This document shows, piece by piece, positions 20,630 to 50,260 of a DNA stretch of 64,000 nt (positions are counted from its first letter, which is position 1; every line of letters begins with the position of its first letter). Where the stretch lies: NCBI RefSeq assembly GCF_011762155.1, contig NZ_JAASQL010000001.1, positions 310,001-374,000 of the forward strand. The letters run 5' to 3'. The position numbers were made by a program, and so were the translations under genes. Below the pieces are notes generated by a model. That model was not told where the DNA came from and made no database searches. It saw nothing but the letters and a program-made list of their open reading frames with translations. Source of the stretch: Wenyingzhuangia heitensis (GTDB lineage: Bacteria; Bacteroidota; Bacteroidia; Flavobacteriales; Flavobacteriaceae).

Positions 20630-21538
20630 ATGAACTACTTTTTAGCCATACTTACCACTGTTTTTATATTAACATCTTGTAAAAATGATAAAAAAAACAA
20701 AACAACAACTGTTAAAACTGAAACAACTAAAGAGCAAAACACATCTATTAAAAATGTAGACACTTCTAAAATGGTTTTATTTAAAGGAGGATCTATAACC
20801 ATTGGTGCTAATGATAGAACTGAACTAGAAGCTCCTGCTTTTGAAACTAATGTGCAACCTTTTTATTTAGATATTAATTTGGTGAGCGTAGCTGATTTTA
20901 GAAAATTTGTTGAAGCAACAAATTACACTACCGAAGCAGAAAATTTTGGAGATTCTGGAGTTTTTGATTTTGAAAATATTGGATGGAATTTAGTAAAAGA
21001 AGTTACTTGGGAATATCCTTTTGGAGTACATGGAGAAAAAGCTAAAAACAACCATCCTGTAACTCATGTAAGTTGGAATGATGCTGTTGCTTTTGCCAAT
21101 TGGGCTGGTAAAAGATTACCAACAGAGCTAGAGTGGGAGTTTGCAGCAAAAAACGGAAAAAATTTAAAATATCCTTGGGGAAATTCCGTTACAAAAGAGA
21201 ATAAAATTATGGCCAATACTTGGGATGGAAAAACCATACAAGATCAAACGGTAAAAGATGGTTATCTATTTACTTCACCCGTAGCTAGTTTTCCTAAAAG
21301 TAATAGTGGTATACATGATATGGTTGGAAATGTATGGCAATGGACCAGTACTATTTTTGCTCCTTATGATAAAAATATACCTTTTCAGAAAAACACAAAT
21401 GTTGTTGTTACCAGAGGAGGGTCTTTTATGTATGATCAAGCTTTGGAGTTAAGTTTTACCACCACGTTTAGAGCCCAAAACACTAAAGAATCTTCTTTGT
21501 TTAATACCGGATTCAGATGTGCAAAATCTGCTAATTAA
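20630..21538 (+). CDS. SUMF1/formylglycine-generating-enzyme-fold lipoprotein, probably non-catalytic
   Basis: The protein has 302 residues. Lipoprotein signal: LTSC lipobox at about residue 17, followed by a short Lys/Thr-rich linker. A SUMF1/FGE-sulfatase domain covers about residues 50-300, with HPVTHVSWNDAVAFANWAGKRLPTELEWEFAA, GNVWQWTS, TRGGSFMYD and the terminal GFRCAKS. In true formylglycine-generating enzymes two cysteines follow the RGGS motif (as in RGGSYMCHRSYC). Here that stretch reads RGGSFMYDQALELS, so both catalytic cysteines are missing. It is therefore unlikely to activate sulfatases, and no sulfatase gene is in the window. It is followed 58 bp downstream by an octahaem cytochrome lipoprotein, which suggests a structural or maturation role there. 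A TTAT/AAAT-rich leader precedes the ATG. Confidence 0.88.
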   Translation: MNYFLAILTTVFILTSCKNDKKNKTTTVKTETTKEQNTSIKNVDTSKMVLFKGGSITIGANDRTELEAPAFETNVQPFYLDINLVSVADFRKFVEATNYTTEAENFGDSGVFDFENIGWNLVKEVTWEYPFGVHGEKAKNNHPVTHVSWNDAVAFANWAGKRLPTELEWEFAAKNGKNLKYPWGNSVTKENKIMANTWDGKTIQDQTVKDGYLFTSPVASFPKSNSGIHDMVGNVWQWTSTIFAPYDKNIPFQKNTNVVVTRGGSFMYDQALELSFTTTFRAQNTKESSLFNTGFRCAKSAN

Positions 21539-21596: not shown

Positions 21597-23828
21597 TTGA
21601 AAAACATTTATATACTACTATTCACAACTTTGTTATTTATTTCGTGTAAAAACACTAAAGATGAAGGCTATAAAAAAGTAGATCCTATGTCTATTTTTAC
21701 CAATACAGATAGCATTCCAAATAAACATTATGTAGGTAGTCAAAAATGTAAAGAATGTCATGCAGATCAATTTCAACAATGGGAAGGATCTCATCATGAT
21801 AAATCTATGCAAAAAGCAGCTAGAGAAAATATTTTAGCCCCGTTTAAAGGAGAAGTTTTTAAAAGTCAAGGAGTAACTTCTACCTTTTTTCAAAAAGAGG
21901 GAAAATTCTACGCAAATACAGAAGGTAGAGATGGAAAAAATCATGATTATGAAATTATTTACACGTTTGGATTAACACCTTTACAACAATACATAGTTTT
22001 GTTTCCCGATGGACATTACCAATGTTTAAGAACTGCCTATGATACCGAAAAAGAAAAATGGTTTGACTTGTATCCAGATTTTAAAGTAGTACATAGTGAA
22101 TGGTTGCATTGGAGTAGAGGAGGATTAAATTGGAATACCATGTGTTCTGATTGTCACAGTACCAACGTAAAAAAGAATTACAACGAAAAAGACCATAGTT
22201 ACGATACCAATTATGCTATTATAAATGTAAGTTGTGAAGCTTGCCACGGACCGGGAAAAGACCATGTTTCTAATGCCGTAATTAAAGGAAATAATTACAA
22301 AAATGATGGAACCATGCAAATGACCAATTTGGGTTCTAAAGAATTGGTAGATGCTTGTGCTCGCTGTCATGCTCGTAGAGAAAACATTAGTTTATTTCAC
22401 ACTCCACAAGGTACTTTTTTAGATCATTATTTTCCACAATTAATACGTGAAAATTTATACCACGCAGATGGTCAAATTTTAGATGAAGATTATGTGTATG
22501 GTTCTTTTGTACAAAGTAAAATGTACCATGAAGGAGTAAGTTGTAAAGACTGCCACAATGTACACTCTACCCAACGAAAATTTAATGACAATAGATTGTG
22601 TTTACAATGTCATGAAGGACCTAAATACGATACTGAAACGCATCACAAACACCCAATGGGAACTGAAAGTGCTTTATGTATTAATTGTCATATGCCAGGG
22701 AAACATTATATGGGAAATGATTTTAGAAGAGATCATAGTTTTAGAATTCCTAGACCCGATTTAAGTTTAAAATACAACAATCCAAATGTGTGTTCTGGTT
22801 GTCATAAAGACAAAGACGATCAATGGGCATATGATAATTTTGTAAAATTGTATGGAGAGCCTAAAAAAGATCATTTTTCTGATAAATTAGCTCCAGGAAT
22901 TACAAGAGCAGTAGGTGGTAAGGATAGTTTAATCGCTTTAGTAAAAGACACAACTTATCCTGATATTGCTAGAGCATCGGCAGTATCTAACCTAAATAAT
23001 TATGTTTCTGAAATAAATATTAATGAAGTTCTTAACTTTTTAAAAGACAAATCGCCGTTAGTAAAAGGAGCTACAGCAGATTTGCTATTTGAATTAAAAG
23101 CAGGTACTGATAATTACAAAGTTTTATTGCCTTTATTAAAAGACAAAAAACGAGCTGTTAGAGTAAAAGCCTTTTTTGCATTAAGTGCAGTGCCTAGCTC
23201 TAAAATACCAGAAGAATACAAACCTTTTTATGACAAAGTAAGAATTGAATTTGCACAAAATTTAAAAGTAGGAGGAGAGTTTTCTGGTGGTAAAATGAAA
23301 CGTGCACAATACTACATGGGAGTTGGTAAAATTAGTAGTGCTATTAAAACCTTAGAAGAAGCTTTGGTATTAGATCCAATAAACAATATAGTACGTACTA
23401 CATTGGCTAATTTATATTATCAGAATAAACAGTATACAGATGCAGAAAATGCCTATAAAACCATTTTAAAACAAGAACCAGGTTTTGGATTGACCAACTT
23501 TGATTATGGTTTGTTATTAAATGAAATAGGAAAACCTAAAGAAGCTATTTTACAATTAAAAAAAGCATTAGAGTTTATGCCAGAGAATGATAGAATTGTC
23601 TATAATTTAGCTTTGTTATATTTCCAAAATAAACAAACAATTAATGCTGTGAGTGTTTTAAAAGTGCAATTAAAAAGAAACCCAACTAATACCGATTTAA
23701 TGTATTTGTTAGCATATATCTACAATCAAAACAAACAAGTGGGATTGGCAAAAAAACAGGTTGAAAAATTATTACAATTAGATCCAAACAATCAACAATA
23801 TTTGCAATTTTATCAAGCATTAAATTAA
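21597..23828 (+). CDS. Octahaem c-type cytochrome lipoprotein with HEAT-like and TPR repeats
   Basis: The product has 743 residues. The start is the TTG at 21597, chosen because it opens a clear lipoprotein signal (lipobox LLFISC); the next ATG is about 30 codons inside. Eight CxxCH haem-binding motifs occur in the first 410 residues: CKECH, CSDCH, CEACH, CARCH, CKDCH, CLQCH, CINCH and CSGCH. Nearby histidines can serve as distal ligands, as in cytochrome c554-type proteins. The C-terminal half has no haem: a HEAT-like stretch (about 440-540) is followed by TPRs (about 555-743). Maturation would need periplasmic cytochrome c assembly. The upstream SUMF1-fold lipoprotein is probably co-transcribed. 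The redox partner and substrate cannot be deduced. Confidence 0.9.
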   Translation: MKNIYILLFTTLLFISCKNTKDEGYKKVDPMSIFTNTDSIPNKHYVGSQKCKECHADQFQQWEGSHHDKSMQKAARENILAPFKGEVFKSQGVTSTFFQKEGKFYANTEGRDGKNHDYEIIYTFGLTPLQQYIVLFPDGHYQCLRTAYDTEKEKWFDLYPDFKVVHSEWLHWSRGGLNWNTMCSDCHSTNVKKNYNEKDHSYDTNYAIINVSCEACHGPGKDHVSNAVIKGNNYKNDGTMQMTNLGSKELVDACARCHARRENISLFHTPQGTFLDHYFPQLIRENLYHADGQILDEDYVYGSFVQSKMYHEGVSCKDCHNVHSTQRKFNDNRLCLQCHEGPKYDTETHHKHPMGTESALCINCHMPGKHYMGNDFRRDHSFRIPRPDLSLKYNNPNVCSGCHKDKDDQWAYDNFVKLYGEPKKDHFSDKLAPGITRAVGGKDSLIALVKDTTYPDIARASAVSNLNNYVSEININEVLNFLKDKSPLVKGATADLLFELKAGTDNYKVLLPLLKDKKRAVRVKAFFALSAVPSSKIPEEYKPFYDKVRIEFAQNLKVGGEFSGGKMKRAQYYMGVGKISSAIKTLEEALVLDPINNIVRTTLANLYYQNKQYTDAENAYKTILKQEPGFGLTNFDYGLLLNEIGKPKEAILQLKKALEFMPENDRIVYNLALLYFQNKQTINAVSVLKVQLKRNPTNTDLMYLLAYIYNQNKQVGLAKKQVEKLLQLDPNNQQYLQFYQALN

Positions 23829-23899: not shown

Positions 23900-25207
23900 T
23901 TACAATTCTGCATTGGTTCTTACTCTACGTTTTGTTACACTAAATCGTCTAATAATAACTCTAGATCCTTTGTTGTAATTTGCGTAATTGTAAATCCAAG
24001 TAATTAGAATTACCAATCTATTTTTAAAACCTACTAAAGAAATTAAGTGAACTGCCATCCAAATAAGCCAAGCAAAAAATCCACCAAATTTTAGTTTGTT
24101 AATATCTGCAACGGCTTTGTTTCTACCAATAGTAGCCATAGAACCTTTGTCTTTGTAAACAAATGGTTTTAGATTGTGATTTCCTTTTAAAATTTTAGGA
24201 AAGTTTTTAGCCAAATTATGAGCTTGTTGTATAGCCGGTTGTGCTACTTGCGGATGTCCTCTTGGATAATCTTCAGAAATCATAAGCGCTACATCACCTA
24301 AAGCAAAAACATCTTTAAAACCTTTTATTTGATTAAATTCATTTACAAAATATCTTTTACTTCTAGGTTCAGAACATTCTTCATCAAAACCATTAATTCT
24401 GTTGGCAATAACTCCAGCAGACCAAATTAAAGTTCTGCTGGCAAATTCTTTACCGTCTTTAGTTTTTGCCAATTTACCATCGTATTCTGTAACTATGGTA
24501 TTGGTATAAATTTGTACCCCTAATTCTTTTAAAAATTGAGTCGATTTTTTAGAAGCATTTTCACTCATAGGAGGTAAGACTCTACCAGCTCCTTCTAACA
24601 AATTAATTTGCATTAAACTAGTGTCTAAATCCGGATAATCCAATGGCAACACACTTTGTTTAAATTCTGCAATAGCACCAGCTAATTCAACCCCCGTAGG
24701 ACCAGCACCTACAATTACAAAATTTAATAAAAACTTTTGAACCTCTACATCCGTTTCTACAGTTGCACGTTCAAAATTTTGTAAAATTAAACTACGTAAA
24801 TTTAATGCCTGAGGAATGGTTTTCATAGGCATTGCGTGTTTTTTAATTTCTTTGTTTCCAAAGTAATTAGTCTTGGTTCCTGTATTGATGATTAAATAAT
24901 CATAAGACAAGTCTCCAATGTCTGATTTTACAATTTTATTTTGAGTATCAATCTCTTTAACATCGGCCATTCTAAAATAAAAATTCTGTTGCTTTTTGAT
25001 AAACATTCTTAACGGATACGCAATAGAATCTGACTCTATACCACTGGTAGATATTTGATACAATAAAGGTTGAAAAGCATGATAATTGTGTTTGTTAACC
25101 ATTACCAATTGTATAGGCAACTTACGCAATTTTTTTACCAAATTAAGTCCTGCAAAACCACCACCAATAACTACTACTCTAGGTAAATCTACTTTAGGTA
25201 TATTCAT
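23900..25207 (-). CDS. ndh: Type II NADH:quinone oxidoreductase (NDH-2)
   Basis: The protein has 435 residues. The FAD-binding dinucleotide fold is at the N-terminus (VVIGGGFAGLNLVKKL, residues 12-27). The second, NADH-binding fold is FVIVGAGPTGVELAGAIAEF at about residue 165. The FAD-contacting VFALGDVA motif is at about 300. The C-terminal region is hydrophobic (FGGFFAWLIWMAVHLISLVGF, then a second segment), matching the membrane anchoring of NDH-2. It should oxidise NADH and reduce menaquinone without pumping protons. It is a monocistronic gene by the look of the flanking terminators. No alternative function is likely, though related sulfide:quinone reductases share the fold. Confidence 0.92.
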   Translation of the reverse strand: MNIPKVDLPRVVVIGGGFAGLNLVKKLRKLPIQLVMVNKHNYHAFQPLLYQISTSGIESDSIAYPLRMFIKKQQNFYFRMADVKEIDTQNKIVKSDIGDLSYDYLIINTGTKTNYFGNKEIKKHAMPMKTIPQALNLRSLILQNFERATVETDVEVQKFLLNFVIVGAGPTGVELAGAIAEFKQSVLPLDYPDLDTSLMQINLLEGAGRVLPPMSENASKKSTQFLKELGVQIYTNTIVTEYDGKLAKTKDGKEFASRTLIWSAGVIANRINGFDEECSEPRSKRYFVNEFNQIKGFKDVFALGDVALMISEDYPRGHPQVAQPAIQQAHNLAKNFPKILKGNHNLKPFVYKDKGSMATIGRNKAVADINKLKFGGFFAWLIWMAVHLISLVGFKNRLVILITWIYNYANYNKGSRVIIRRFSVTKRRVRTNAEL

Positions 25208-25234
25208 GTTTTAAAAAATTTATAGGGATATAAA

Positions 25235-25266
25235 TAAAAAAACTGTATTGAAATTTCAATACAGTT
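25235..25266 (-). terminator. Terminator of rpiB
   Basis: A perfect 26-bp palindrome (AACTGTATTGAAA and its complement) at 25241-25266 is followed on the minus strand by six T. It lies just past the rpiB stop codon. Confidence 0.8.
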
Positions 25267-25287
25267 TATAGTTAATTTATTTTTTAT

Positions 25288-25719
25288 TTATGAGCAAGAA
25301 ATTTTATCTACTCTATTTTGGTGACGACCTCCTTCAAAATCGGTAGCTAAAAAAGTTTCTACCATTTCTATAGCTTGTTCTATAGCTGTAAAACGAGCAG
25401 GAATACATAAAATATTAGCATTGTTATGTTGTCTTACTAAAGAAACTATTTCTTTTGTCCAACATAACCCAGCTCTTACATTTTGATATTTATTTGCAGT
25501 CATAGCAACACCATTTGCGCTACCACAAATTAAAATTCCAAAATCTACAGCTTTTGTATCTACTGCGTTTGCAACTTTATGAGCATGGTCTGGATAATCT
25601 ACACTATCAAAAGTATCAGTTCCATAATTTACTACTTCAATACCTTTTTCTTCTAATAATTTTACGATAGCTAATTTATAAGCTGGTCCAGCGTGATCGT
25701 TTCCGATTGCTATTTTCAT
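25288..25719 (-). CDS. rpiB: Ribose-5-phosphate isomerase B
   Basis: The product has 143 residues and is full length for the RpiB/LacAB family. It shows the N-terminal substrate-binding GNDHAG (residues 6-11) and YPDHAHKVA. The catalytic-cysteine block ILICGSANGVAM has Cys65, and RQHNNANIL carries the conserved histidine. The C-terminal GRHQNRVDKI motif binds the phosphate. It interconverts ribose 5-phosphate and ribulose 5-phosphate in the pentose phosphate pathway. It is the last minus-strand gene before an 880-bp non-coding region with origin-like features. It has its own terminator, so it appears to be transcribed alone. Confidence 0.95.
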   Translation of the reverse strand: MKIAIGNDHAGPAYKLAIVKLLEEKGIEVVNYGTDTFDSVDYPDHAHKVANAVDTKAVDFGILICGSANGVAMTANKYQNVRAGLCWTKEIVSLVRQHNNANILCIPARFTAIEQAIEMVETFLATDFEGGRHQNRVDKISCS

Positions 25720-25739
25720 AACTGTTGTTTTATAATTTA

Positions 25740-26550
25740 AAACAAATTTACAAAAACAACCCTTATAAGGACTAACTTTAAATATACAAATAGCTATCTA
25801 CAATTGTTTATATCCATACTTGATAAAATGCTAACAACTATACAATGTATTTTTAAATGAATTTTAAGGTAAATAATATCTTTGTATTTAGTTAAAATAC
25901 TGACTGTAAACAATTCATAAAAAGATAGATTATTTTACAAAAACCAACTAACTATAAATCAATACATTACACTTTTATCATTTACTAAATATTTAATAAT
26001 CAGTAAGTTTTATTATATAATTCACATTATAAACAGTTATTAACATACTAAATAATAAGTATTCGTAAAAACCTTTAAAATCAGCTAATTACAAAAACTA
26101 GTAAATTGTTGATAAACTGTGGTTAAATAAACGAAACTAAATTTTGTAATATGACATTAAAAAACAATACGTGACAGACCTAATACAAAGCAAATTTATT
26201 TAACACAAAGTTATAAACGGTTATTAACAATTTATCCACGGTTTATTAATAATCAACACTTAAAATTTTATACCTAAAAAAAGATAAAAGCAGGTTGTTA
26301 ACAACTGTGAATAACTAACATTAATATGTTTATTTTAAACAAATTAAGAATCTAATAAGATGTTAATAAAGTAAATTTAATGTTAAATCAAAATTAAATT
26401 AAGTGGAGTTATTGTATAAATCAACACCTAATAATACCCTATCATTTGTTTTATAAATTTTAAAAAAGAAAAAATTAGATATTATATAGGTGTTGATAAG
26501 GTTTAAAATAAATTTTTAATCTATTTAAATTTCAGTTAACATAGGTTATA
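25740..26550. other. Putative chromosomal replication origin (oriC)
   Basis: This 880-bp gap between divergent rpiB and the next gene has no ORF and is the most AT-rich stretch I see in the window. It contains nonamers resembling the DnaA box TTATNCACA: TTATTCACA (26306-26314, minus), TTATCCACG (26232-26240), TTAACCACA (26118-26126, minus) and TAATTCACA (26018-26026). There are also three TTATTAACA (26037-26045, 26221-26229, 26361-26369 minus) and two TTATCAACA (26107-26115 and 26491-26499, both minus). Two pairs sit 11 bp apart in tandem and face each other across about 95 bp. AT-rich DNA at 26320-26550 could be the unwinding element. Gene orientation on both sides diverges from here. The motifs are observed; origin function is inferred. 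Confidence 0.65.
26420..26497. repeat. 11-bp inverted repeat in the putative origin
   Basis: ATCAACACCTA at 26420-26430 is the exact reverse complement of TAGGTGTTGAT at 26487-26497. The right copy overlaps a TGTTGATAA nonamer. The arms are 56 bp apart, inside AT-rich DNA just before the promoter of the next gene. Confidence 0.6.
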
Positions 26551-26553
26551 ATG

Positions 26554-26561
26554 TACCTTTG
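26554..26561 (+). promoter_or_regulatory. Promoter core (TAnnTTTG) of the T9SS protein gene
   Basis: TACCTTTG fits the Bacteroidota -7 element exactly, 39 bp before the start codon. The leader that follows contains three direct copies of AAAATAAAAC up to the ATG, typical of an A-rich leader without a Shine-Dalgarno sequence. Confidence 0.6.
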
Positions 26562-26600
26562 CAAAAAATAAAACAAAAATAAAACAAAAATAAAACAAGA

Positions 26601-28043
26601 ATGAAACAAAAACTACTCTTTGTATTAATGTTAATTACACAATCTTTTTTTGCACAATGGAATCAAGTAGGATCCGATATAGATAGTGATAAACAAGATA
26701 ATTTTTTTGGAAAATCTATAGCTATAAATAATTTAGGAGATATTGTTGCTGTAGGTGCTACAGATGATGATGAATCATCTACTATTTTTAATAATGGTGT
26801 GGTAACTGTATATAAAAAAAATGAAGCCAATGAATGGATTCAATATGGAAATAAAATAATTGGAGAATCAGCTAATGATGAATCTAGTTATTCTTTAAGT
26901 ATAAACGGAGCAGGAACTATTGTAGCTGTAGGAAGTATAAAGAATAATGATGCTGGTATTAATTCAGGTCATGTTAGAGTTTATGAATACAATGCTGGAA
27001 CTTGGACTCAAATAGGTGCTGATTTAGATGGTTTATCTGGAGATTTTTCTGGAACTTCTGTTAGTTTAAATCAATCAGGAACTATTTTAGCTGTAGGAGC
27101 TCCTAAAAATTCTACAAATGCATTAGAATCTGGAGCTGTAAGAATTTATGAATATTCTTCAGGTAATTGGACTTTAAGTTCTGTTTTTTACGGACAAACA
27201 GCTGAAGATAACTTAGGATTTTCTGTTAGTTTAAATGGACAAGGAACTAAGTTGGTAGTAGGTGCTCCAGGTAATTCTACAAACGGAAATTTTGCAGGTT
27301 TGGTAAGAATTTATGAATATTCTTCTGGATCTTGGGCTTTACATTCAGATTTATACAATCAAACAGCTGAAGATTATTTTGGAGTTTCTGTTGATATGAA
27401 TGAACTGGGAAATATAATTGTTATTGGAGCTAGCAAAAGTGATGGAGAAGCAGGTGTAGATACTGGACATACAAGTGTTTATCAATACAACTCAGGAGCA
27501 TGGTCTAAAATAGGAAATAATATTCAAGGAGAAGGATCTCAAGATGAATCTGGTAGTGTAGTTAGTATAAATAGCAATGGTTCTATTATTGCTATTGGAG
27601 CCAAAAGAAATGGAGAGTCTGCTAGTAAGCATGGACATGTTAGAGTTTATAAAAATGAAAGCGGTACTTGGTTACAACAAGGGAATGATATTGATGGAGA
27701 AGCAAATTTTGATGAATCTGGAATTTCTATAGATCTAAATAATGAGGGATCGATAGTTGCTATTGGAGCTTCTTTAAATGATGGAGTAGGACCTAATAGT
27801 GGTCATGCAAGAATTTTTAAATATGAAGAAGTTCTGTTAACAAATTCAACTTCTGTTATAAATGGTTTAACTATTACGTTTGTAAATAATTCTTTTAAAA
27901 GTAATTTACCGAATATTAAACTTTTAATTAAAAATATTTTAGGCCAAGAATTACCAAATCATTCAATTCAATCTGGAGTTTATTTTGTACAAGCTCAAAA
28001 CTCTACAGGTGCTATTCAATTGTTTAAATTGCTAGTTAAATAA
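26601..28043 (+). CDS. Secreted FG-GAP/beta-propeller-like protein with T9SS sorting domain
   Basis: The product has 480 residues. The signal peptide is MKQKLLFVLMLITQSFFAQ. The body has about seven repeats of roughly 55 residues, in the pattern GxSVSLNxxGTIxAVGAxxxxxxxxxxGxVRVYEYxSGxW. This resembles FG-GAP/integrin-alpha-like blades and would close into a beta-propeller. The last 65 residues (GLTITFVNNSFKSNL, NILGQELPN, SGVYFVQAQ, QLFKLLVK) form a type A T9SS sorting domain, so the protein should be surface-attached or released. It is the first plus-strand gene to the right of the proposed origin and is flanked by its own promoter and terminator. The ligand is unknown. Confidence 0.88.
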   Translation: MKQKLLFVLMLITQSFFAQWNQVGSDIDSDKQDNFFGKSIAINNLGDIVAVGATDDDESSTIFNNGVVTVYKKNEANEWIQYGNKIIGESANDESSYSLSINGAGTIVAVGSIKNNDAGINSGHVRVYEYNAGTWTQIGADLDGLSGDFSGTSVSLNQSGTILAVGAPKNSTNALESGAVRIYEYSSGNWTLSSVFYGQTAEDNLGFSVSLNGQGTKLVVGAPGNSTNGNFAGLVRIYEYSSGSWALHSDLYNQTAEDYFGVSVDMNELGNIIVIGASKSDGEAGVDTGHTSVYQYNSGAWSKIGNNIQGEGSQDESGSVVSINSNGSIIAIGAKRNGESASKHGHVRVYKNESGTWLQQGNDIDGEANFDESGISIDLNNEGSIVAIGASLNDGVGPNSGHARIFKYEEVLLTNSTSVINGLTITFVNNSFKSNLPNIKLLIKNILGQELPNHSIQSGVYFVQAQNSTGAIQLFKLLVK

Positions 28044-28198: not shown

Positions 28199-30418
28199 AT
28201 GCCAAGAGGTAAAAAGACAGGTATTTTTAAGAAAAAAGGAGGAGTTATTAAAGATCTTACTCGTAAGGTGTTTAAAGTATTAAACGAGAATAGTGGAAAT
28301 CCTTTAAACTATAAACAAATTGCCGCTAAGTTACAATTAGAAGATCACGGTAGTAAACAACAACTATTGTTAAAATTGGAAGAGTTAAAAGCTCAAAAAA
28401 AAATAAAAGAAGAGGATAGAGGCAAGTTTGTGTTAGATGCTGAAAAAAATTATCACATAGGAACTTTAGACGTAACCAGTACTGGTAATGCTTACTTTAT
28501 TTGTGATGATTTTGAAACTGATGCTTTCATCAATAAAAATAGCGTAAACGGAGGTTTAAACGGAGATACCGTTAAAGCTTATGTTTATAAACGCAAACAA
28601 CGCAACAAATTAGAAGGTGAAGTTGTAGAAGTTTTAGAACGCAAAAAAACAGACTTTGTAGGAACCCTACAATTAAGTGCTCGTTTTGGTTTTGTGGTTG
28701 CTGATGATAGATCTATGAACAACGACATTTTTATTCCTAAAGATAAAATAGGGGAAGCTGTTGATGGAGACAAAGTAGTGGCAAGTATTACAGATTGGCC
28801 ATCAGACTCTAAAAATCCTTACGGAACCATAACTAGAGTTTTAGGTAAAGCAGGTGAACACAATACAGAAATTCATGCCATTCTTGCAGATTATAATTTG
28901 CCTTATGAATTTCCTGAAGAGGTTGAAGCTGCAGCAGAACAATTAGATGTTACTATTACCGAAGAAGAAATAGCCAAACGTAGAGACATGAGAGATGTGT
29001 TAACATTTACCATAGATCCACGTGATGCTAAAGATTTTGATGATGCATTGTCTTTTCAAAAATTAGAAAATGGAAATTACGAAATAGGAATTCACATTGC
29101 AGATGTTTCTCATTATGTAGCCGAAGGTTCTATTTTAGACGATGAAGCTTATACCCGTGCAACTTCTGTTTATTTGGTAGATAGAGTAGTACCTATGTTG
29201 CCAGAAATGTTATCTAACGGAGTATGTTCTTTACGACCTGAAGAAGAAAAATTAACTTTTTCTGCTATTTTTGAATTGAATGATAAAGCAGAAATTAAAA
29301 AAGAATGGTACGGTAGAACGGTTACTTATTCTGACAAACGTTTTGCTTATGAAGAAGCTCAAGTTATAATAGAAAATGGAACTTTAGAAGAAGGTGAAAT
29401 TCATACCATTCCTGCAGAAATATCTATTACTGATGAAGCTTATGATGTAGCTCCAGAAATTGCTGATGCAATTTTAAAAATGGATACTTTGGCTAAAATT
29501 ATGCGTGGCAAACGTATGAAATCTGGTGCTTTGGCTTTTGATAAAGTTGAAACCAAATTTAATTTAGACGAGAATGCCAATCCAATAGGAGTGTTTTTTA
29601 AAGAATCTAGAGATGCTAATAAATTGATTGAAGAATTTATGTTATTAGCCAATAGAAAAGTGGCAGAATTTGTTGGAAAAACCAAATCTGGTCAACCTAA
29701 AAAAACATTTATATACAGAACTCACGATGAACCTAATACGGATAAGTTAGAAGCTTTAGGAAACTTGGTTCAAAAATTTGGATACGGAATAGATACTAGA
29801 TCTAGAATGTCTACATCATCATCTTTAAATAAATTATTAAGTGATGTGCATGGAAAAGCAGAATCTAACATGATTGAGACCTTAACCATTCGTTCTATGA
29901 GTAAGGCAGAATATACGACTGAAAATATTGGGCATTACGGTTTGGCTTTTGATTATTACAGTCATTTTACATCGCCAATTCGTAGATATCCAGATGTAAT
30001 GGCTCACAGGTTGTTACAACATTATTTAGACAAAGGTAAATCTGTATCTGCAGAAGAATACGAAGAAAAATGTGCACATTCATCAGAAATGGAAATGTTA
30101 GCCTCTAAAGCAGAAAGAGATTCTATTAAATACATGCAAATTAAATACATGCAAAACTTTACAGGAAAAGCTTTTAAAGGAGTAATTTCTGGAGTTACAG
30201 AGTGGGGTATTTATGTAGAAGTGATGGAAAACAAATGTGAAGGAATGGTAAGAACTAGAGATATTACTAGTGATCATTTTGTTTTTGATCAAGAAGAATA
30301 TGCTTTGATAGGTAGAAAACACGGAGACGTTTATCGTTTGGGTGATGAAGTTTGGATTAAAGTTAAAAATGCCGATTTAGAACGTAAGCATTTAGATTTT
30401 TATTTGATAGAAGAGTAG
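28199..30418 (+). CDS. rnr: Ribonuclease R
   Basis: The product has 739 residues. In order: a basic N-terminus with a winged-helix-like segment (residues about 15-80), two cold-shock/OB domains (about 85-240), the RNB catalytic domain (about 265-590) and a C-terminal S1 domain (about 640-735, GVISGVTEWGIYVEV). The RNB active site TIDPRDAKDFDDALS carries the aspartates that bind the two metal ions. It is a processive 3'-to-5' exoribonuclease able to degrade structured RNA and to take part in rRNA and tRNA quality control. Length and domain order are those of Bacteroidota RNase R. It is followed by a DUF2807 gene 47 bp downstream. Confidence 0.96.
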   Translation: MPRGKKTGIFKKKGGVIKDLTRKVFKVLNENSGNPLNYKQIAAKLQLEDHGSKQQLLLKLEELKAQKKIKEEDRGKFVLDAEKNYHIGTLDVTSTGNAYFICDDFETDAFINKNSVNGGLNGDTVKAYVYKRKQRNKLEGEVVEVLERKKTDFVGTLQLSARFGFVVADDRSMNNDIFIPKDKIGEAVDGDKVVASITDWPSDSKNPYGTITRVLGKAGEHNTEIHAILADYNLPYEFPEEVEAAAEQLDVTITEEEIAKRRDMRDVLTFTIDPRDAKDFDDALSFQKLENGNYEIGIHIADVSHYVAEGSILDDEAYTRATSVYLVDRVVPMLPEMLSNGVCSLRPEEEKLTFSAIFELNDKAEIKKEWYGRTVTYSDKRFAYEEAQVIIENGTLEEGEIHTIPAEISITDEAYDVAPEIADAILKMDTLAKIMRGKRMKSGALAFDKVETKFNLDENANPIGVFFKESRDANKLIEEFMLLANRKVAEFVGKTKSGQPKKTFIYRTHDEPNTDKLEALGNLVQKFGYGIDTRSRMSTSSSLNKLLSDVHGKAESNMIETLTIRSMSKAEYTTENIGHYGLAFDYYSHFTSPIRRYPDVMAHRLLQHYLDKGKSVSAEEYEEKCAHSSEMEMLASKAERDSIKYMQIKYMQNFTGKAFKGVISGVTEWGIYVEVMENKCEGMVRTRDITSDHFVFDQEEYALIGRKHGDVYRLGDEVWIKVKNADLERKHLDFYLIEE

Positions 30419-34581: not shown

Positions 34582-36096
34582 TTATCCTAATTTTTGAATA
34601 GCATTTTCTATTCTTTTTATAGCATTTTCTTTTCCAATCATTTCTATAATTTCAAATAAATCTGGACCTTTCATTGCACCTACTATACTTAAACGTAAAG
34701 GCTGTAAAACTTTTCCAAAACCTAATTCATTTGCTGTAATATATTCTTTTACTTTTCCTTCAATGTTTTTACTATTAAATTCTGTTACGTTTTTAATAGT
34801 TTCTAATACTGCTGTCATAATAGCAGAAGTATCTTCTTTCCATTGTTTTCTGGCTGTTTTTTCATCATAACTTGTAGGGTTTACAAAATAATAATCAGAC
34901 AATTCCCATAGATCTTTCGTAAAAGTTGCTCTTTCTCTTACAGATGTTATTACTTTATAAATGTAATCATCATCATAATCAGATATTAAATCTTTGTTTA
35001 ATATTTTAAATTCAATTACAATTTTTGATACATCTGTAGACATCATGTATTGTTGATTGAACCATTTTGTTTTATCAATACTAAATTTTGCTCCAGATTT
35101 TGATACACGTTCTATGCTAAATTCTTTACACAATTCTTCTAAAGAAAAAAGTTCTTGCTCCGTTCCAGGATTCCACCCTAACAAAGCCAACATATTTATA
35201 AAAGCATCATTAAAATAACCTTCTTCTTTATAACCAGTAGAAACTTCGTTTGTCTCTTTATTTATATAATCTAAAGGAAAAACAGGAAATCCTAATTTAT
35301 CACCATCACGTTTGCTTAATTTTCCTTTACCAACAGGTTTTAAAATTAAGGGTAAGTGAGCAAATTTTGGAGCAATCCATCCAAAGGCTTCATATAATAA
35401 ACTATGTAATGGTAAAGATGGTAACCATTCTTCACCACGAATTACATGGCTAATTTCCATTAAATGATCGTCTACAATATTTGCCAAATGGTAGGTAGGC
35501 ATTCCGTCAGATTTAAATAAAATTTTATCATCTAATGTATTTGTATCAATGGTTATTTCACCACGAATCATATCATCTAAAATTAGTTTTTGATCTTTTG
35601 GTGTTTTAAAACGGATGACATATTTTTCACCAGCAGTCAATTTGTTTTCAACTTCTTCTTTAGATAAGTTGATAGAATTATTTAATGTTTCACGTGAAAC
35701 ATTGTTGTATACAAATACGGTTTTATTAGCTTCAGCTTGATTGCGTATATCAGTCAATTCTTCAGCAGTATCAAAAGCATAATAAGCTTGGTTACTTGCA
35801 ACCAAAGCATCCGCATATTTTTTATAAATATCTTTCCTTTCGGATTGACGATAAGGACCAAATTTTTCATTCTTACCAGGACCTTCATCAAAAGGAATTC
35901 CACACCATTCTAAAGATTCAGTAATATAGTTTTCTGCATTTGCAACGTATCTAGTTTGATCGGTATCTTCTATTCTTAATACAAACGTTCCGTTGTGTTT
36001 TTTAGCAAATAAGTAGTTAAACAATGCTGTTCTTACTCCTCCAATATGTAAAGGACCTGTAGGGCTTGGTGCAAATCTTACACGTACATTTTCCAT
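34582..36096 (-). CDS. gltX: Glutamyl-tRNA synthetase
   Basis: The product has 504 residues, a class I synthetase. The nucleotide-binding HIGH motif appears as PLHIGG near residues 15-20 (FAPSPTGPLHIGGVRTALFNYLFAKK). The KMSKS-type loop appears as KLSKRDGDKLGF in the middle of the protein. The C-terminal half is the all-helical anticodon-binding domain (ITANELGFGKVLQPLRLSIVG). It charges tRNA-Glu, and possibly tRNA-Gln if a GatCAB amidotransferase is present elsewhere. The coding sequence contains an exact 16-bp parS-like palindrome at 35686-35701, within codons for NVSRET. Transcription is monocistronic with a strong terminator. Confidence 0.96.
   Translation of the reverse strand: MENVRVRFAPSPTGPLHIGGVRTALFNYLFAKKHNGTFVLRIEDTDQTRYVANAENYITESLEWCGIPFDEGPGKNEKFGPYRQSERKDIYKKYADALVASNQAYYAFDTAEELTDIRNQAEANKTVFVYNNVSRETLNNSINLSKEEVENKLTAGEKYVIRFKTPKDQKLILDDMIRGEITIDTNTLDDKILFKSDGMPTYHLANIVDDHLMEISHVIRGEEWLPSLPLHSLLYEAFGWIAPKFAHLPLILKPVGKGKLSKRDGDKLGFPVFPLDYINKETNEVSTGYKEEGYFNDAFINMLALLGWNPGTEQELFSLEELCKEFSIERVSKSGAKFSIDKTKWFNQQYMMSTDVSKIVIEFKILNKDLISDYDDDYIYKVITSVRERATFTKDLWELSDYYFVNPTSYDEKTARKQWKEDTSAIMTAVLETIKNVTEFNSKNIEGKVKEYITANELGFGKVLQPLRLSIVGAMKGPDLFEIIEMIGKENAIKRIENAIQKLG
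35686..35701. other. parS-like ParB binding site within gltX
   Basis: TGTTTCACGTGAAACA is a perfect 16-bp palindrome identical to the canonical chromosomal parS consensus known from Bacillus and other phyla. It lies in the gltX coding sequence, about 9.5 kb from the proposed origin. The match is direct; ParB binding is inferred. Confidence 0.75.
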
Positions 36097-36212
36097 GGTT
36101 ACTTTTTTAGAATTTTATATTTGTTTTAATTGCTTGCAAATATACTTTATCTACCCATTAATATGATTGATATACTTTAATTTATTGTCTTTCAATGTAC
36201 CAAGTTATTTAG

Positions 36213-36220
36213 TACCTTTG
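36213..36220 (+). promoter_or_regulatory. Promoter core (TAnnTTTG) of ybeY
   Basis: TACCTTTG lies 17 bp upstream of the ybeY ATG, with a TTG about 25 bp further upstream as a possible -33 element. Confidence 0.55.
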
Positions 36221-36237
36221 CAAATCAAATTTTTACA

Positions 36238-36651
36238 ATGATAGATTTTACTTACGAAGCTGATTTTGAATTGGTTAATACAAAGCAACATGTAGAGTGG
36301 ATACAAAATGCTTTATTAGAAGAGGGTTTTGAAGAGGGAGATATTAATTATATTTTTTGTGATGATGAATATCTTCATAAATTGAATGTAGAATTTTTAA
36401 AACATGATACTTTAACAGATATAATTAGTTTTGATTATACGATGGGTAAATTAATTTCTGGTGATATTTTTATATCTGTAGAGCGTGTTTTTGATAATGC
36501 AAAAGATTTAGGTATTGAGTTTAGTGAAGAAATTAATCGTGTTATGATTCACGGTATTTTACATTATTGTGGTTATAAAGATAAACAAGAAGACGATGTA
36601 AAATTGATGCGTAGCAAAGAAGAATATTATATATCTAAAATTGCTAAATAG
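36238..36651 (+). CDS. ybeY: rRNA maturation endoribonuclease YbeY
   Basis: The product has 137 residues, the usual length. The family core is present: LNVEFLKHDTLTDIISFDY, SGDIFISVERV and the metal-binding segment HGILHYCGYKDKQEDD. In most YbeY proteins the metal site is HGxLHxxGYDH with three histidines. Here His105 and His109 are kept, but residue 115 is Asp where the third His usually is. The protein should still act in 16S rRNA 3'-end maturation and ribosome quality control. The Asp ligand may be a lineage variant. The stop codon overlaps a parS-like palindrome, and mnmG follows 73 bp downstream. Confidence 0.92.
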   Translation: MIDFTYEADFELVNTKQHVEWIQNALLEEGFEEGDINYIFCDDEYLHKLNVEFLKHDTLTDIISFDYTMGKLISGDIFISVERVFDNAKDLGIEFSEEINRVMIHGILHYCGYKDKQEDDVKLMRSKEEYYISKIAK

Positions 36652-36664
36652 TTCCACGTGGAAC
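36651..36664. other. parS-like ParB binding site between ybeY and mnmG
   Basis: GTTCCACGTGGAAC is a perfect 14-bp palindrome sharing the CACGTG core and the outer GTT/AAC of canonical parS. Its first base is the last base of the ybeY stop codon. An identical copy lies at 38611. Confidence 0.75.
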
Positions 36665-36724
36665 AAATATAAAAAGATAAATAAGATTGAATTTTGATTC
36701 GGTTTTTTAATAGAAAATAAATAT

Positions 36725-38602
36725 ATGAGTTTATTTACGGATACTTACGATGTAATTGTTGTTGGAGCAGGTCATGCTGGTTCTGAAGCTGCGGCAGCTT
36801 CTGCTAACATGGGTGCTAAAACTTTGTTGGTAACTATGAGTTTACAAAACATTGCTCAAATGAGTTGTAATCCTGCTATGGGTGGAATTGCAAAAGGACA
36901 AATTGTTAGGGAGATAGATGCATTAGGTGGATATAGCGGAATTGTTACTGATAAAACAGCTATACAGTTTAAAATGTTAAATAAGTCTAAAGGTCCTGCA
37001 ATGTGGAGTCCAAGAGCACAATCTGATAGAATGCGTTTTGCGGAGGAATGGAGAAATATGTTAGAGCAGACAGATAATTTAGATTTTTATCAAGATATGA
37101 TCAAGGGTTTGATTATTGAAGATGGAGAAATTAAAGGTGTAAAAACAGGATTGGGTTTTGAAATTAAAGCAAAATCTGTAATTATTACTGCGGGTACTTT
37201 TTTAAATGGATTGATTCATATTGGTGAAAAATCTTTTGGAGGAGGTAGGTCTGGTGAAAGTGCTTCTACAGGAATAACCGAAGATTTGGTAAAAGTTGGT
37301 TTTGAGGCTGGAAGAATGAAAACAGGAACACCACCAAGAGTAGATGCTAGATCTTTAGATTTTTCTAAAATGATAGAACAACCTGGTGATGAAAATCCTG
37401 AGAAATTTTCTTATTTAGAATCTACCAAACCTTTAGTGGAGCAACGTTCTTGTTATATGAGTTATACTTCTCAAGAAGTGCATGATTTGTTGCGTACCGG
37501 TTTTGATAGATCTCCTATGTTTAATGGTAGAATTCAATCTACTGGACCTCGTTATTGTCCATCTATAGAAGATAAAATTGATCGTTTTGCAACAAAAGAT
37601 AGACATCAAATTTTTGTAGAACCAGAAGGTTGGAAAACAGTTGAAATTTATGTGAATGGATTTTCTACTTCTTTACCAGAAGATGTTCAAGATAAAGCAC
37701 TTCGTAAAGTTGCTGGTTTTGAGAATGTAAAATTCTTAAGATATGGATATGCAATAGAGTATGATTTCTTTCCACCAACTCAATTAACACATTCTTTAGA
37801 GACTAAGTTGGTAAAGAATTTGTTTTTTGCTGGACAAATTAATGGTACTACTGGTTACGAAGAAGCAGGAGCACAAGGTTTAATGGCAGGAATAAATGCT
37901 GCTTTAAAAGTTCAAAAGAGACCTCCTTTTATTTTAAAAAGAGATGAAGCTTATATTGGTGTTTTGATTGATGATTTGATAACGAAAGGTACAGAAGAAC
38001 CTTATAGGATGTTTACTTCTAGAGCAGAATATAGAACTTTATTACGTCAAGATAATGCAGATATTCGATTAACTCCATTGTCTAACGCAATTGGTTTGGC
38101 TTCTGATGATCGTTTAGAAAGAGTAAAAGAAAAAGTATTAAAATCTGATTTATTGGTTCAGTTTTTACACGATACAAGTATAAAACCGGAAGCTGCTAAT
38201 CCTATTTTAGAAGCTAAAGGATCGGCAATAATCAATCAATCTGTTAAAATGTTTAAGGTAGCTTCTCGCCCTCAAATAGATTTTAAAGACGTGATTACTT
38301 TTCCTGGAGTATCAGAATTTGTAGCGCAAAATAATATTAATGCAGATGCTCTAGAGCAGGCAGAAGTAAAGGTTAAATATGCAGGTTATATAGAAAAAGA
38401 AAAGAACAATGCAGATAAGTTACAGCGTTTAGAAAATATATCTATCCCTAAAACTTTTGATTATTATAAAGTTAAATCATTATCTACAGAAGCTCAACAA
38501 AAACTAACTAAAATACAACCTGTAACTATTTCTCAAGCGAGTAGAATTAGTGGTGTTTCACCATCTGATGTTTCAGTTTTATTGGTTTATATGGGAAGAT
38601 AA
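36725..38602 (+). CDS. mnmG: tRNA uridine-5-carboxymethylaminomethyl modification enzyme MnmG (GidA)
   Basis: The product has 625 residues. The FAD-binding motif is VVGAGHAGSEAAAASANMGA near residue 13. Family blocks include QMSCNPAMGGIAKGQIVREIDALGG, MKTGTPPRVD, GPRYCPSIEDK and FFAGQINGTTGYEEAGAQGLMAG. The helical C-terminal domain that binds MnmE begins at about residue 550. With MnmE it installs carboxymethylaminomethyl groups at the wobble uridine of several tRNAs. In many bacteria mnmG (gidA) lies near the replication origin; here it is bracketed by two identical parS-like sites and is about 10 kb from the proposed oriC. Confidence 0.97.
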   Translation: MSLFTDTYDVIVVGAGHAGSEAAAASANMGAKTLLVTMSLQNIAQMSCNPAMGGIAKGQIVREIDALGGYSGIVTDKTAIQFKMLNKSKGPAMWSPRAQSDRMRFAEEWRNMLEQTDNLDFYQDMIKGLIIEDGEIKGVKTGLGFEIKAKSVIITAGTFLNGLIHIGEKSFGGGRSGESASTGITEDLVKVGFEAGRMKTGTPPRVDARSLDFSKMIEQPGDENPEKFSYLESTKPLVEQRSCYMSYTSQEVHDLLRTGFDRSPMFNGRIQSTGPRYCPSIEDKIDRFATKDRHQIFVEPEGWKTVEIYVNGFSTSLPEDVQDKALRKVAGFENVKFLRYGYAIEYDFFPPTQLTHSLETKLVKNLFFAGQINGTTGYEEAGAQGLMAGINAALKVQKRPPFILKRDEAYIGVLIDDLITKGTEEPYRMFTSRAEYRTLLRQDNADIRLTPLSNAIGLASDDRLERVKEKVLKSDLLVQFLHDTSIKPEAANPILEAKGSAIINQSVKMFKVASRPQIDFKDVITFPGVSEFVAQNNINADALEQAEVKVKYAGYIEKEKNNADKLQRLENISIPKTFDYYKVKSLSTEAQQKLTKIQPVTISQASRISGVSPSDVSVLLVYMGR

Positions 38603-38610
38603 TATATAAA

Positions 38611-38624
38611 GTTCCACGTGGAAC
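38611..38624. other. parS-like ParB binding site after mnmG
   Basis: This second copy of GTTCCACGTGGAAC begins 9 bp after the mnmG stop codon and is identical to the copy in front of the gene. It is non-coding. Confidence 0.75.
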
Positions 38625-38636
38625 AAATAGATAATT

Positions 38637-47985: not shown

Positions 47986-48187
47986 TAAGGTATCCCTTTT
48001 TTCACTTAACACCCTTGCAGGTTTAACAACATAATTAAGCTGTATATTAGTAAGAAAATAATCCTAACTAATTATTAAACAAATTAACTATTTATCTTAA
48101 TCATTAATCATTCAATTTTAATCACAAATTGGTCAAAAAATAGAAATAGATAAAAAGGGTTGTTTGTGAAAAATAATTGTCAATCAG

Positions 48188-50260
48188 ATGTTTAACCGTA
48201 TGATTAAAAATATTTCTATCATAAATAGACTTTTTATAGACAGTAATATGTCTAAAACTACTTTAAAAAGGGTAAACCTTTTATTGCTGTTTTCTTTTGT
48301 TTGGATGCTAGAAGCTTTGGTGTCAATTCCACTATCCTCTACTCAAAGCAATCCAGAATTGGTTGTTAAAGGACATGTGTTTAATTTAATTACAGTAAGT
48401 ATTGTTTTGGTTTTTTTATATTTTAAAAAATACAATTGGGCTCTTGTTGTATTTATGCTTTCGGTGGTTTTAACCATTTTATTATTCACAAATTTTATTA
48501 CACCAGGAACTTATTCAGAAATTCATTACTTGCATGTTCCTTTGTTAATGCTTGTGTTAACAGATAATAAAAAGTTAATATTTATAAGTTTAATAATATC
48601 TTATTTAGGTTTTGTGTTGCCCAATAAATATTTAAATATTTATTCAGATTCAAATTATATGGATCCGTTTTCTAGCTTTATTTTCTTTTTAATTTCATTT
48701 TTATTAGTTTACTTTTTTAAGGTAAATAATCTTAAAAACGAAAAATTATTAGAAGATAAAAAAACAGAATTAGAAGAATTAAATAAATTTCAATCTCAAT
48801 TTTTTATCAATATTTCTCACGAAATTAGAACACCATTAACAATTATAAAAGGGGAGGTTGATAAGTTAAAAGAAATACCATCAGCTAAAAAAATAGAAGA
48901 AAAATTAAACCAACAAATAGATAGAATTAAAAATATTGTAGATGATGTTATAGACCTTTCTAAAATGGACAACACTTCTTTTAATTTAAATTTAGAGTTG
49001 GTAGATTTAAAAGATATTATCACCAAAGTATTTGTGTCTTTTCAGCCTTTGTTTGATCAAAAAAAAATACAATTTAAGTTTATATCTTCATTAGAAAGTT
49101 ACATCATTAATGGAGATGAAGTATACTTAGAAAGAGCCATTAACAATTTGGTGTTAAATGCATATAAATTTACAGACTATAAAGGAACTGTAACATTAGA
49201 ACTTATTACAAATGATGATACGGTGTCTTTAATGTTAACGGATAATGGAATAGGAATATCTAAAAAACACATTTCAAAAGTATTTAAAAGGTTTTATCAG
49301 GTAGATAATGATATTAATAAAAGTGGAGGTAGTGGTGTTGGGCTGTCTTTTAGTAAGGAGATAATAGATTTACATAACGGAACATTTGTAATAAATAGTA
49401 AGCCTTGTGTAGGAACCAATATAGAGTTAAAATTTATAAAAGAAAACACACCTGCAAATGCGAATTATAAAGTTGTTATAAACACAGAAAAGACAATAAC
49501 GCAGCAGTTAGATTTACAAAACGAAACAAGTAACAACTACACCGTTTTAATTGTAGACGACTCTTATGATTTAAGAATTTATTTAAAAGAAATTTTAAAC
49601 AATTACAATTGTATAGAAGCTAAAAACGGAATGGAGGCTTTGTCCATATTAAGAACTTCTAAAATTAAATTTGATTTGATTATAAGTGATTATATGATGC
49701 CTAAAATGGATGGTTTAGAACTGTTAACCAACATCAAATCTTTTTTGCATACAATTCCCGTGTTAATGCTTACAGCAAGAACAGATCAACAAAGTAAAAT
49801 AGATCTTTTAACGTTAGAGGTAGATGATTATTTAAACAAACCTTTTGAAAAAGAAGAGTTTTTAATAAGGGTTAAAAACCTATTAAAACAAAACAAAAAA
49901 AGAATTCAGTATTTAGAAAAAGAAAACATATCTAAATCAGAAATAAAAGTAAATAGTGTTTGGGTAAAAAAGTTAAAAACTTACATAAAAGAAAATTACT
50001 CAAACCCTAAGTTAAATCAAGAAGAAATAGCAGAGCATTTTAATTTGTCTAAAAGTTCTTTTTATAGAAAAGTAAAAATAGAAACAGGTTTAACTCCTAA
50101 TGGATTTATTACAGAAATTAAATTGCAAGAAGCTAGAAGTATTGTAGAAAATAAAAAAGAAATTACGTTAAAGGAGCTTTCATTACAGGTAGGATATTTG
50201 CATACCTCTTATTTTGTAAATAAGTATGAAAAAAGATTTGGTAAACACCCCTTAAAATAA
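48188..50260 (+). CDS. Hybrid histidine kinase / response regulator with AraC DNA-binding domain
   Basis: The product has 690 residues if the first ATG is used; in-frame ATGs at codons 5 and 21 are also possible. Five or six membrane helices lie in the first 185 residues. A HisKA domain follows, with the phosphoacceptor in FFINISHEIRTPLTII at about residue 210. HATPase_c has DNGIGI and GGSGVGLSFS. A receiver domain has its phosphoacceptor Asp in DLIISDYMMPKMDG (about 500), and an AraC-type helix-turn-helix is at the C-terminus (about 595-690). The one-protein layout recalls HTCS regulators, but the input domain is a membrane bundle rather than a periplasmic propeller. Its signal and target genes are not evident. 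It follows the FecA-like receptor by 248 bp. Confidence 0.93.
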   Translation: MFNRMIKNISIINRLFIDSNMSKTTLKRVNLLLLFSFVWMLEALVSIPLSSTQSNPELVVKGHVFNLITVSIVLVFLYFKKYNWALVVFMLSVVLTILLFTNFITPGTYSEIHYLHVPLLMLVLTDNKKLIFISLIISYLGFVLPNKYLNIYSDSNYMDPFSSFIFFLISFLLVYFFKVNNLKNEKLLEDKKTELEELNKFQSQFFINISHEIRTPLTIIKGEVDKLKEIPSAKKIEEKLNQQIDRIKNIVDDVIDLSKMDNTSFNLNLELVDLKDIITKVFVSFQPLFDQKKIQFKFISSLESYIINGDEVYLERAINNLVLNAYKFTDYKGTVTLELITNDDTVSLMLTDNGIGISKKHISKVFKRFYQVDNDINKSGGSGVGLSFSKEIIDLHNGTFVINSKPCVGTNIELKFIKENTPANANYKVVINTEKTITQQLDLQNETSNNYTVLIVDDSYDLRIYLKEILNNYNCIEAKNGMEALSILRTSKIKFDLIISDYMMPKMDGLELLTNIKSFLHTIPVLMLTARTDQQSKIDLLTLEVDDYLNKPFEKEEFLIRVKNLLKQNKKRIQYLEKENISKSEIKVNSVWVKKLKTYIKENYSNPKLNQEEIAEHFNLSKSSFYRKVKIETGLTPNGFITEIKLQEARSIVENKKEITLKELSLQVGYLHTSYFVNKYEKRFGKHPLK

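Follow-up and report, generated by a model that had tools for sequence, protein, structure and literature searches.

For Elizabethkingia meningoseptica, an Ori-Finder prediction has been described in which oriC and its DnaA boxes lie remote from dnaA (PMC8994065), and within the Flavobacteriaceae Ori-Finder has placed oriC at mnmG in Mariniflexile litorale (PMC11278836) and Algorimicrobium (PMC12843772). The dnaA of M. litorale is inconsistent with the skew plot (PMC11278836), and in one of the two papers with the mnmG placement (PMC12843772, PMC11278836) the text and a figure legend are in conflict over the gene marking oriC or ter; an Ori-Finder prediction has likewise been reported for Tenacibaculum dicentrarchi (PMC4759079). 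As for origin unwinding, the basal unwinding system (BUS) of Bacillus subtilis has been described as tandem boxes 6/7 combined with DnaA-trios (PMC8287927, PMC6669920). Among the papers listed in our searches, none dealt with the origin of Wenyingzhuangia or with the box TTATNAACA in Flavobacteriaceae; DoriC, which was outside the scope of this search, may already hold a prediction for this genome or a relative.

The DNA analyzed herein is a stretch of 64,000 nucleotides of the marine bacterium Wenyingzhuangia heitensis (contig NZ_JAASQL010000001.1, positions 310,001 to 374,000), hereafter the window, in which a sequence-only reading had proposed a candidate chromosomal origin within a gene-free gap, the most AT-rich stretch it saw. 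The ORF list of the window agreed with this description, leaving an ORF-free intergenic gap of 881 bp (25720-26600) with a GC content of 0.197 in 25740-26550 against 0.294 in the whole window, and the lowest-GC 800-bp stretch of the window starts at 25851 (0.191; runner-up at 40101, 0.2025). The gap is flanked by divergent genes, on the left by a minus-strand gene (25288-25719) which we take to be rpiB, as named in the sequence-only reading, and on the right by a plus-strand gene for an FG-GAP-repeat protein (26601-28043; FG-GAP_2 match). Beyond the latter lies a plus-strand gene (28199-30418) for ribonuclease R, as judged by its sequence, which we presume to be rnr and which stands beside the origin in relatives. 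The cluster of DnaA boxes in the gap beyond chance, the GC-skew minimum within it, the conservation of its core in relatives, its recurrence at the same place in them, and the nearby parS-like sites together support the proposed origin, and we thus predict with a probability of about 0.95 that the gap represents the chromosomal oriC.

GC skew, which the sequence-only reading had named as a check on its proposal, was computed from the window and 24 sampled stretches of its contig in the assembly, a draft of 26 contigs. The cumulative minimum of the window fell at 26274, inside the gap. All six sampled 20-kb stretches to the left of the gap showed negative skew (one at -0.001) and all 18 sampled stretches to the right showed positive skew, the surroundings of dnaA included, and the only sign change among the 24 was located at the gap. 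At third codon positions and fourfold sites, the skew of single genes scattered too much for the switch to be located. The one-contig genome of a congener (G002; 3,427,057 bp) gave a consistent picture, in which the conserved core described below lies at 3276096-3276622 and the skew of a 60-kb stretch reaches its minimum at 3276027, 69 bp from the core. Among the 20 stretches sampled in this genome, the ten at 1.8-3.26 Mb were negative and that at 1.6 Mb gave -0.012, while those at 3.28 Mb and 0-1.4 Mb were positive except for two at zero or -0.001; positive skew thereby gives way to negative skew between 1.4 and 1.8 Mb of the 3.43-Mb genome. A switch in gene orientation had also been noted at the gap, and it was observed within the window (13 of 15 genes to the left on the minus strand and 20 of 28 to the right on the plus strand, per the gene list) but not outside it on the left, since the ORF bias further left on the contig was plus in four of the six sampled stretches and did not follow the skew. 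The orientation argument is thus local, while the skew itself continues. Among the minus-strand genes to the left, two adjoining genes are on the plus strand, encoding a sulfatase-modifying-factor-like protein (20630-21538) and a cytochrome-c-like protein with TPR repeats (21597-23828).

The gap carries ten matches to the DnaA box TTATNCACA with at most one mismatch, in line with the at least nine nonamers counted from the letters, and the single exact one is TTATTCACA at 26306 on the minus strand; position 6 is A in six of the ten boxes and C in four. When the gap was dinucleotide-shuffled, the mean was 2.4 boxes and none of 500 shuffles reached ten. Over 864 kb examined, consisting of the 64-kb window and 40 sampled 20-kb stretches, the gap was the densest box cluster, with the best 600-bp stretch outside it holding seven boxes. 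Other AT-rich DNA was of no comparable density, as 190 other overlapping windows with a GC content of at most 0.235 held 1.09 boxes on average and five at most; the check on box clustering thereby came out in favor of the proposed site. The second-best box density of the window was seen at 48023-48640 (seven per 600 bp), a region without phased pairs.

The spacing of the boxes was also examined. With a broad pattern, fitted to the boxes of this very gap, five pairs of same-strand boxes spaced by 10-11 bp were detected there and none elsewhere in the window or in 800 kb of sampled stretches. With the general pattern at no more than one mismatch, which was used for the genome-wide and family pair counts, the whole genome contained eight 11-bp tandems (two in the gap) and six 10-bp tandems (three in the gap). 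As the reversed-pattern controls gave two and seven matches, respectively, it is the clustering of the tandems rather than their genome total that stands out.

Pair I on the plus strand (26027..26045; TTATAAACA and TTATTAACA, starts 10 bp apart), identified as pattern matches like pair II, is unevenly kept among six aligned genomes, all nine columns being invariant in the box at 26037 and just four of nine in that at 26027. Pair II on the minus strand (26107..26126; TTAACCACA and TTATCAACA, 11 bp apart) points leftward, with six and eight of nine columns invariant in the six genomes. Triple III on the plus strand (26211..26240; TTATAAACG, TTATTAACA and TTATCCACG, 10 and 11 bp apart) points rightward, and its 26221/26232 pair is recognizable in the six aligned genomes with eight and seven of nine invariant columns. 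The two 11-bp tandems at 26107/26118 and 26221/26232 had been described as facing each other; they do exist, but they point apart. Pair IV on the minus strand (26296..26314; TTATTCACA and TTGTTAACA, 10 bp apart) overlaps a 12-bp invariant run at 26298-26309, and a single box TTATTAACA follows at 26361..26369 on the minus strand, with eight of nine columns invariant.

Two further elements could bear on unwinding. A BUS-type module calls for three or more trios (NTN, read on the strand of the boxes) no farther than 16 nt behind tandem boxes, and a candidate DnaA-trio tract of six NTN triplets begins 2 nt past pair II on its strand (26087..26104, minus). Six triplets were found at this place in four of six genomes, and two and one in the other two, while only 1.4% of AT-rich control positions reached six. 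Compared with this tract, those behind pairs I, III and IV and behind the single boxes proved weaker or recurred less consistently. The other element is an imperfect inverted repeat (26418..26499), a candidate for an unwinding or architectural role, which ends in the box TTATCAACA (26491-26499, minus) and in which 26420-26497 matches itself on the opposite strand at 78%. It encloses a near-invariant AT-rich tract (26441-26490), and 51 of the 60 columns of 26441-26500 are invariant. An alternative assignment of 26418-26499 as an RNA hairpin was dropped because its arms, in an alignment judged by eye, seem to vary without compensation.

A BLAST search with 25950-26560 gave one long match in each of five of the six other genus genomes (74-86% identity), and together with the alignment these defined a conserved oriC core of about 490 bp (26018..26510). 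The exception, G006, is 85% complete and carries neither rpiB nor the core. In the six aligned genomes, invariant columns across 26010-26510 made up 76 of 99 in the boxes versus 214 of 402 in the remainder, and the longest invariant run, of 18 bp (26444-26461), belongs to the AT-rich tract adjoining the box at 26491. In the window and in one congener (G001), the core has rpiB as its left neighbor; in the remaining four congeners this place is taken by an NADH-dehydrogenase-like gene, and rnr directly follows the core. The best match of the ribonuclease R among the best 80 of at least 578 was that of Wenyingzhuangia marina (89%); the W. marina locus L042, identical over the region to L132 and to the locus of G004, was omitted from the six-genome counts.

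The comparison was then extended to the family loci, comprising the best 80 of at least 578 confirmed ribonuclease R stretches from Flavobacteriaceae and near kin, some of which are titled only Bacteroidia or Bacteroidetes; 15 without a minus-strand rpiB to the left of rnr were dropped, leaving 65. Within this best-80 selection, the densest 600-bp box window lay between rpiB and rnr in 48 of the 65 loci (4.6 expected by length) and elsewhere in 17, and exact TTATN[AC]ACA occurred at 4.28/kb in the gaps, compared with 0.31/kb in the remaining noncoding DNA. In the same loci from the best 80 of at least 578, pairs of one-mismatch boxes at 10 or 11 bp were found in 42 of 65 gaps versus five of 65 in a background 3.2 times as large, and the most enriched 9-mers of the gaps, obtained with no box assumed, were led by TATTAACAA, CTATTAACA and TTATTAACA, with TTATCAACA in the top five. 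The exact triple III showed no family-wide signal, since its 20 bases with up to two mismatches were matched in 13 of 120 genomes, our own included, fewer than the 22 of 120 matched by the reversed pattern as a control. A near-identical 20-mer, GTATTAACAATTTATYAACG, which is a variant of pair III, was seen in five genomes of different genera (G024, G032, G074, G104 and G118).

With a length of 22 kb, the family loci did not extend far enough for skew minima to be reliable. In 200-kb stretches the minimum fell inside the rpiB-rnr gap for Polaribacter irgensii and for Aquimarina sp. AU474, and off the gap with a flat bottom in T. dicentrarchi (by about 11 kb) and Mariniflexile gromovii (by about 35 kb, near a contig end). 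The gap of Aquimarina sp. AU474 (L080) has no box cluster by the motif used, and its DnaA box may differ. Stretches around rnr were also examined in four one-contig genomes of the family, and in all four the top cluster of boxes lay near rnr, in or beside the rpiB-rnr gap. It was inside the gap in G026, G033 and G037 (11, 17 and 16 boxes per 600 bp, respectively), and in G035 a cluster of ten lies beside rnr despite an rpiB 37 kb away, which suggests that the origin keeps company with rnr. The local skew minima were off the cluster by about 13 kb in G033, 21 kb in G026 and 23 kb in G035, the last with noisy skew. In G037, the skew changes from -0.12 to +0.17 across the gap (6 kb spanning the record start); the best window in its first 40 kb holds eight boxes at 8.5 kb, and the cluster of 16 precedes base 1. 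The position of base 1 in the gap suggests that the depositor may already have taken this site as the origin. Many relatives seem to have retained a similar site next to rnr.

The presence of mnmG and parS-like sites in the vicinity raises the question of whether the origin lies there (35.7-38.7 kb) and the gap is merely a regulatory cluster that binds DnaA. We take the plus-strand gene at 36725..38602, about 10 kb from the predicted oriC, to be mnmG, as named in the sequence-only reading. The three parS-like palindromes reported along with it within 13 kb of the gap were confirmed at 9-13 kb: an exact match to TGTTTCACGTGAAACA, the parS consensus (35686..35701), and two sites with a palindromic inner 14 bp, one of them 59 bp upstream of mnmG (36650..36665) and the other at 38610..38625. 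When as many as three mismatches to this consensus were allowed, no other CACGTG-centered site turned up in the genome, and three parS-like sites were also found in G002 (3265650-3268569). By our reading, mnmG is preceded by a parS-like site no more than about 60 bases away, both in the window and in 17 of 18 family loci where an mnmG match was present (L042, L043, L045, L048, L053, L054, L055, L057, L058, L059, L063, L064, L066, L071, L075, L095 and L119), and mnmG therefore seems to mark parS rather than oriC. In favor of the mnmG site are the Ori-Finder placements cited above, a distance of 10 kb that coarse skew would not resolve, and the scatter of the skew minima of relatives by 11-35 kb. 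Against this, the skew minimum of the window lies at 26274 and the region 36000-36800 contains no exact TTATN[AC]ACA and four one-mismatch matches; moreover, the top box cluster of M. gromovii is in its rpiB-rnr gap, 31 kb from mnmG, with the skew falling on past mnmG, and the G035 cluster beside rnr has no mnmG within the 80 kb fetched (L251-L254). The data for Mariniflexile thus favor the rnr side over the published mnmG placement, and the origin at mnmG was rejected as quite improbable.

A role of the gap as a promoter or small-RNA region, with the conserved repeats serving as sites of a transcription regulator, might be suggested by its AT-richness and divergent flanking genes but is still less probable. 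An RNA element was rejected because no Rfam match was found inside the gap when 25000-27000 was searched (the one weak match, E 0.93 and below the gathering score, lay outside it), and a promoter/terminator region because promoter-like sites numbered 10 versus 9.2 in shuffles; in addition, the core is kept while the neighboring genes differ among congeners, and the agreement with the skew minimum would have to be a coincidence. The origin at dnaA (contig 1.712 Mb), commonly assumed in default annotation, was rejected as having a negligible chance, for despite a few upstream boxes, one exact, dnaA is 1.38 Mb from the gap and its skew minimum and is flanked on either side by sampled stretches of positive skew, without any change there. 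The region upstream of dnaA (contig 1711374-1711773; L022 11374-11773) holds the palindromic TTGTTAACAA and an exact TTATTCACA, possibly for autoregulation.

Returning to the rpiB-rnr gaps as origins, we compared the boxes by position 6. In the 65 family loci from the best 80 of at least 578, TTATNAACA gave 214 matches in 62 gaps (3.70/kb versus 0.24/kb in other noncoding DNA; its reversed control, 0.50 versus 0.24/kb), and TTATNCACA gave 34 matches in 33 gaps (0.59 versus 0.06/kb). Both boxes were thus enriched in this best-80 selection, with an A:C ratio at position 6 of 6.3 in the gaps and 3.8 in other noncoding DNA, and the latter value indicates that AT-rich composition already explains much of the preference for TTATNAACA. 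The recognition helix of the own DnaA reads RDHATV, compared with RDHTTV in the DnaA of PDB 8btg, that of B. subtilis, and in 30 family loci of 31 genomes, our own included, it reads DHAT in 29 and DHST in one. T435 of E. coli is listed among the box-contacting residues (PMC7561715), and we infer that the helix Ala may be linked to A at box position 6. A Flavobacteriaceae origin with a shifted initiator code, combining the box TTATNAACA, same-strand 10-11 bp pairs upstream of rnr and a matching change of the DnaA helix (E. coli T435 to A), is accordingly put forward only tentatively, with the odds somewhat against it and lowered by the composition effect on the A:C ratio. If true, the E. coli box would be unreliable for finding origins in this family, which could explain why published predictions landed at mnmG, and a joint change of box and helix would offer a handle on the evolution of DnaA specificity.

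DnaA binding, the strand-opening site and segregation at the predicted oriC can be envisaged as follows. DnaA on tandem boxes 10-11 bp apart would place neighboring molecules on one face of the helix, and the outward-pointing pairs II and III could seed DnaA filaments. The strands would probably open beside a pair, 26087-26104 being the first candidate and the AT-rich 26441-26490 the second; this step is the weakest part of the mechanism. Helicase loading would then yield two forks that depart in opposite directions, so that the contig is replicated leftward on the left of the gap and rightward on its right, and ParB bound at parS would aid the separation of the new copies of the region. The predicted origin is ordinary in kind and well resolved, and the possible family-wide box variant is the part worth following. 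The predicted site provides a precise and testable origin for the genus Wenyingzhuangia and, for a large family where dnaA offers no guidance, the practical rule of looking for box pairs upstream of rnr. Correctly placed origins are important when growth rates are estimated from metagenomes, strand bias is studied or replicating vectors are built.

The gap shares with the E. meningoseptica prediction its intergenic location, a box cluster, skew-aided placement and a far-off dnaA, but differs in that the latter has three boxes near TTATCCACA whereas the gap has ten or more, with phased pairs and A over C at position 6. The M. litorale and Algorimicrobium predictions, in the same family, put oriC at mnmG, whereas the gap of Wenyingzhuangia lies beside rnr. 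With respect to the BUS of B. subtilis, the likeness is in the boxes of pair II, which are 2 bp apart and followed 2 nt further on by the triplet tract, and in the spacer of 13 nt that separates the upstream box from the tract, a length given as the commonest in the BUS survey (PMC8287927, PMC6669920). Unlike in the BUS, the triplets after pair II are mostly non-GAT and the tract is not kept in two of the six congeners.
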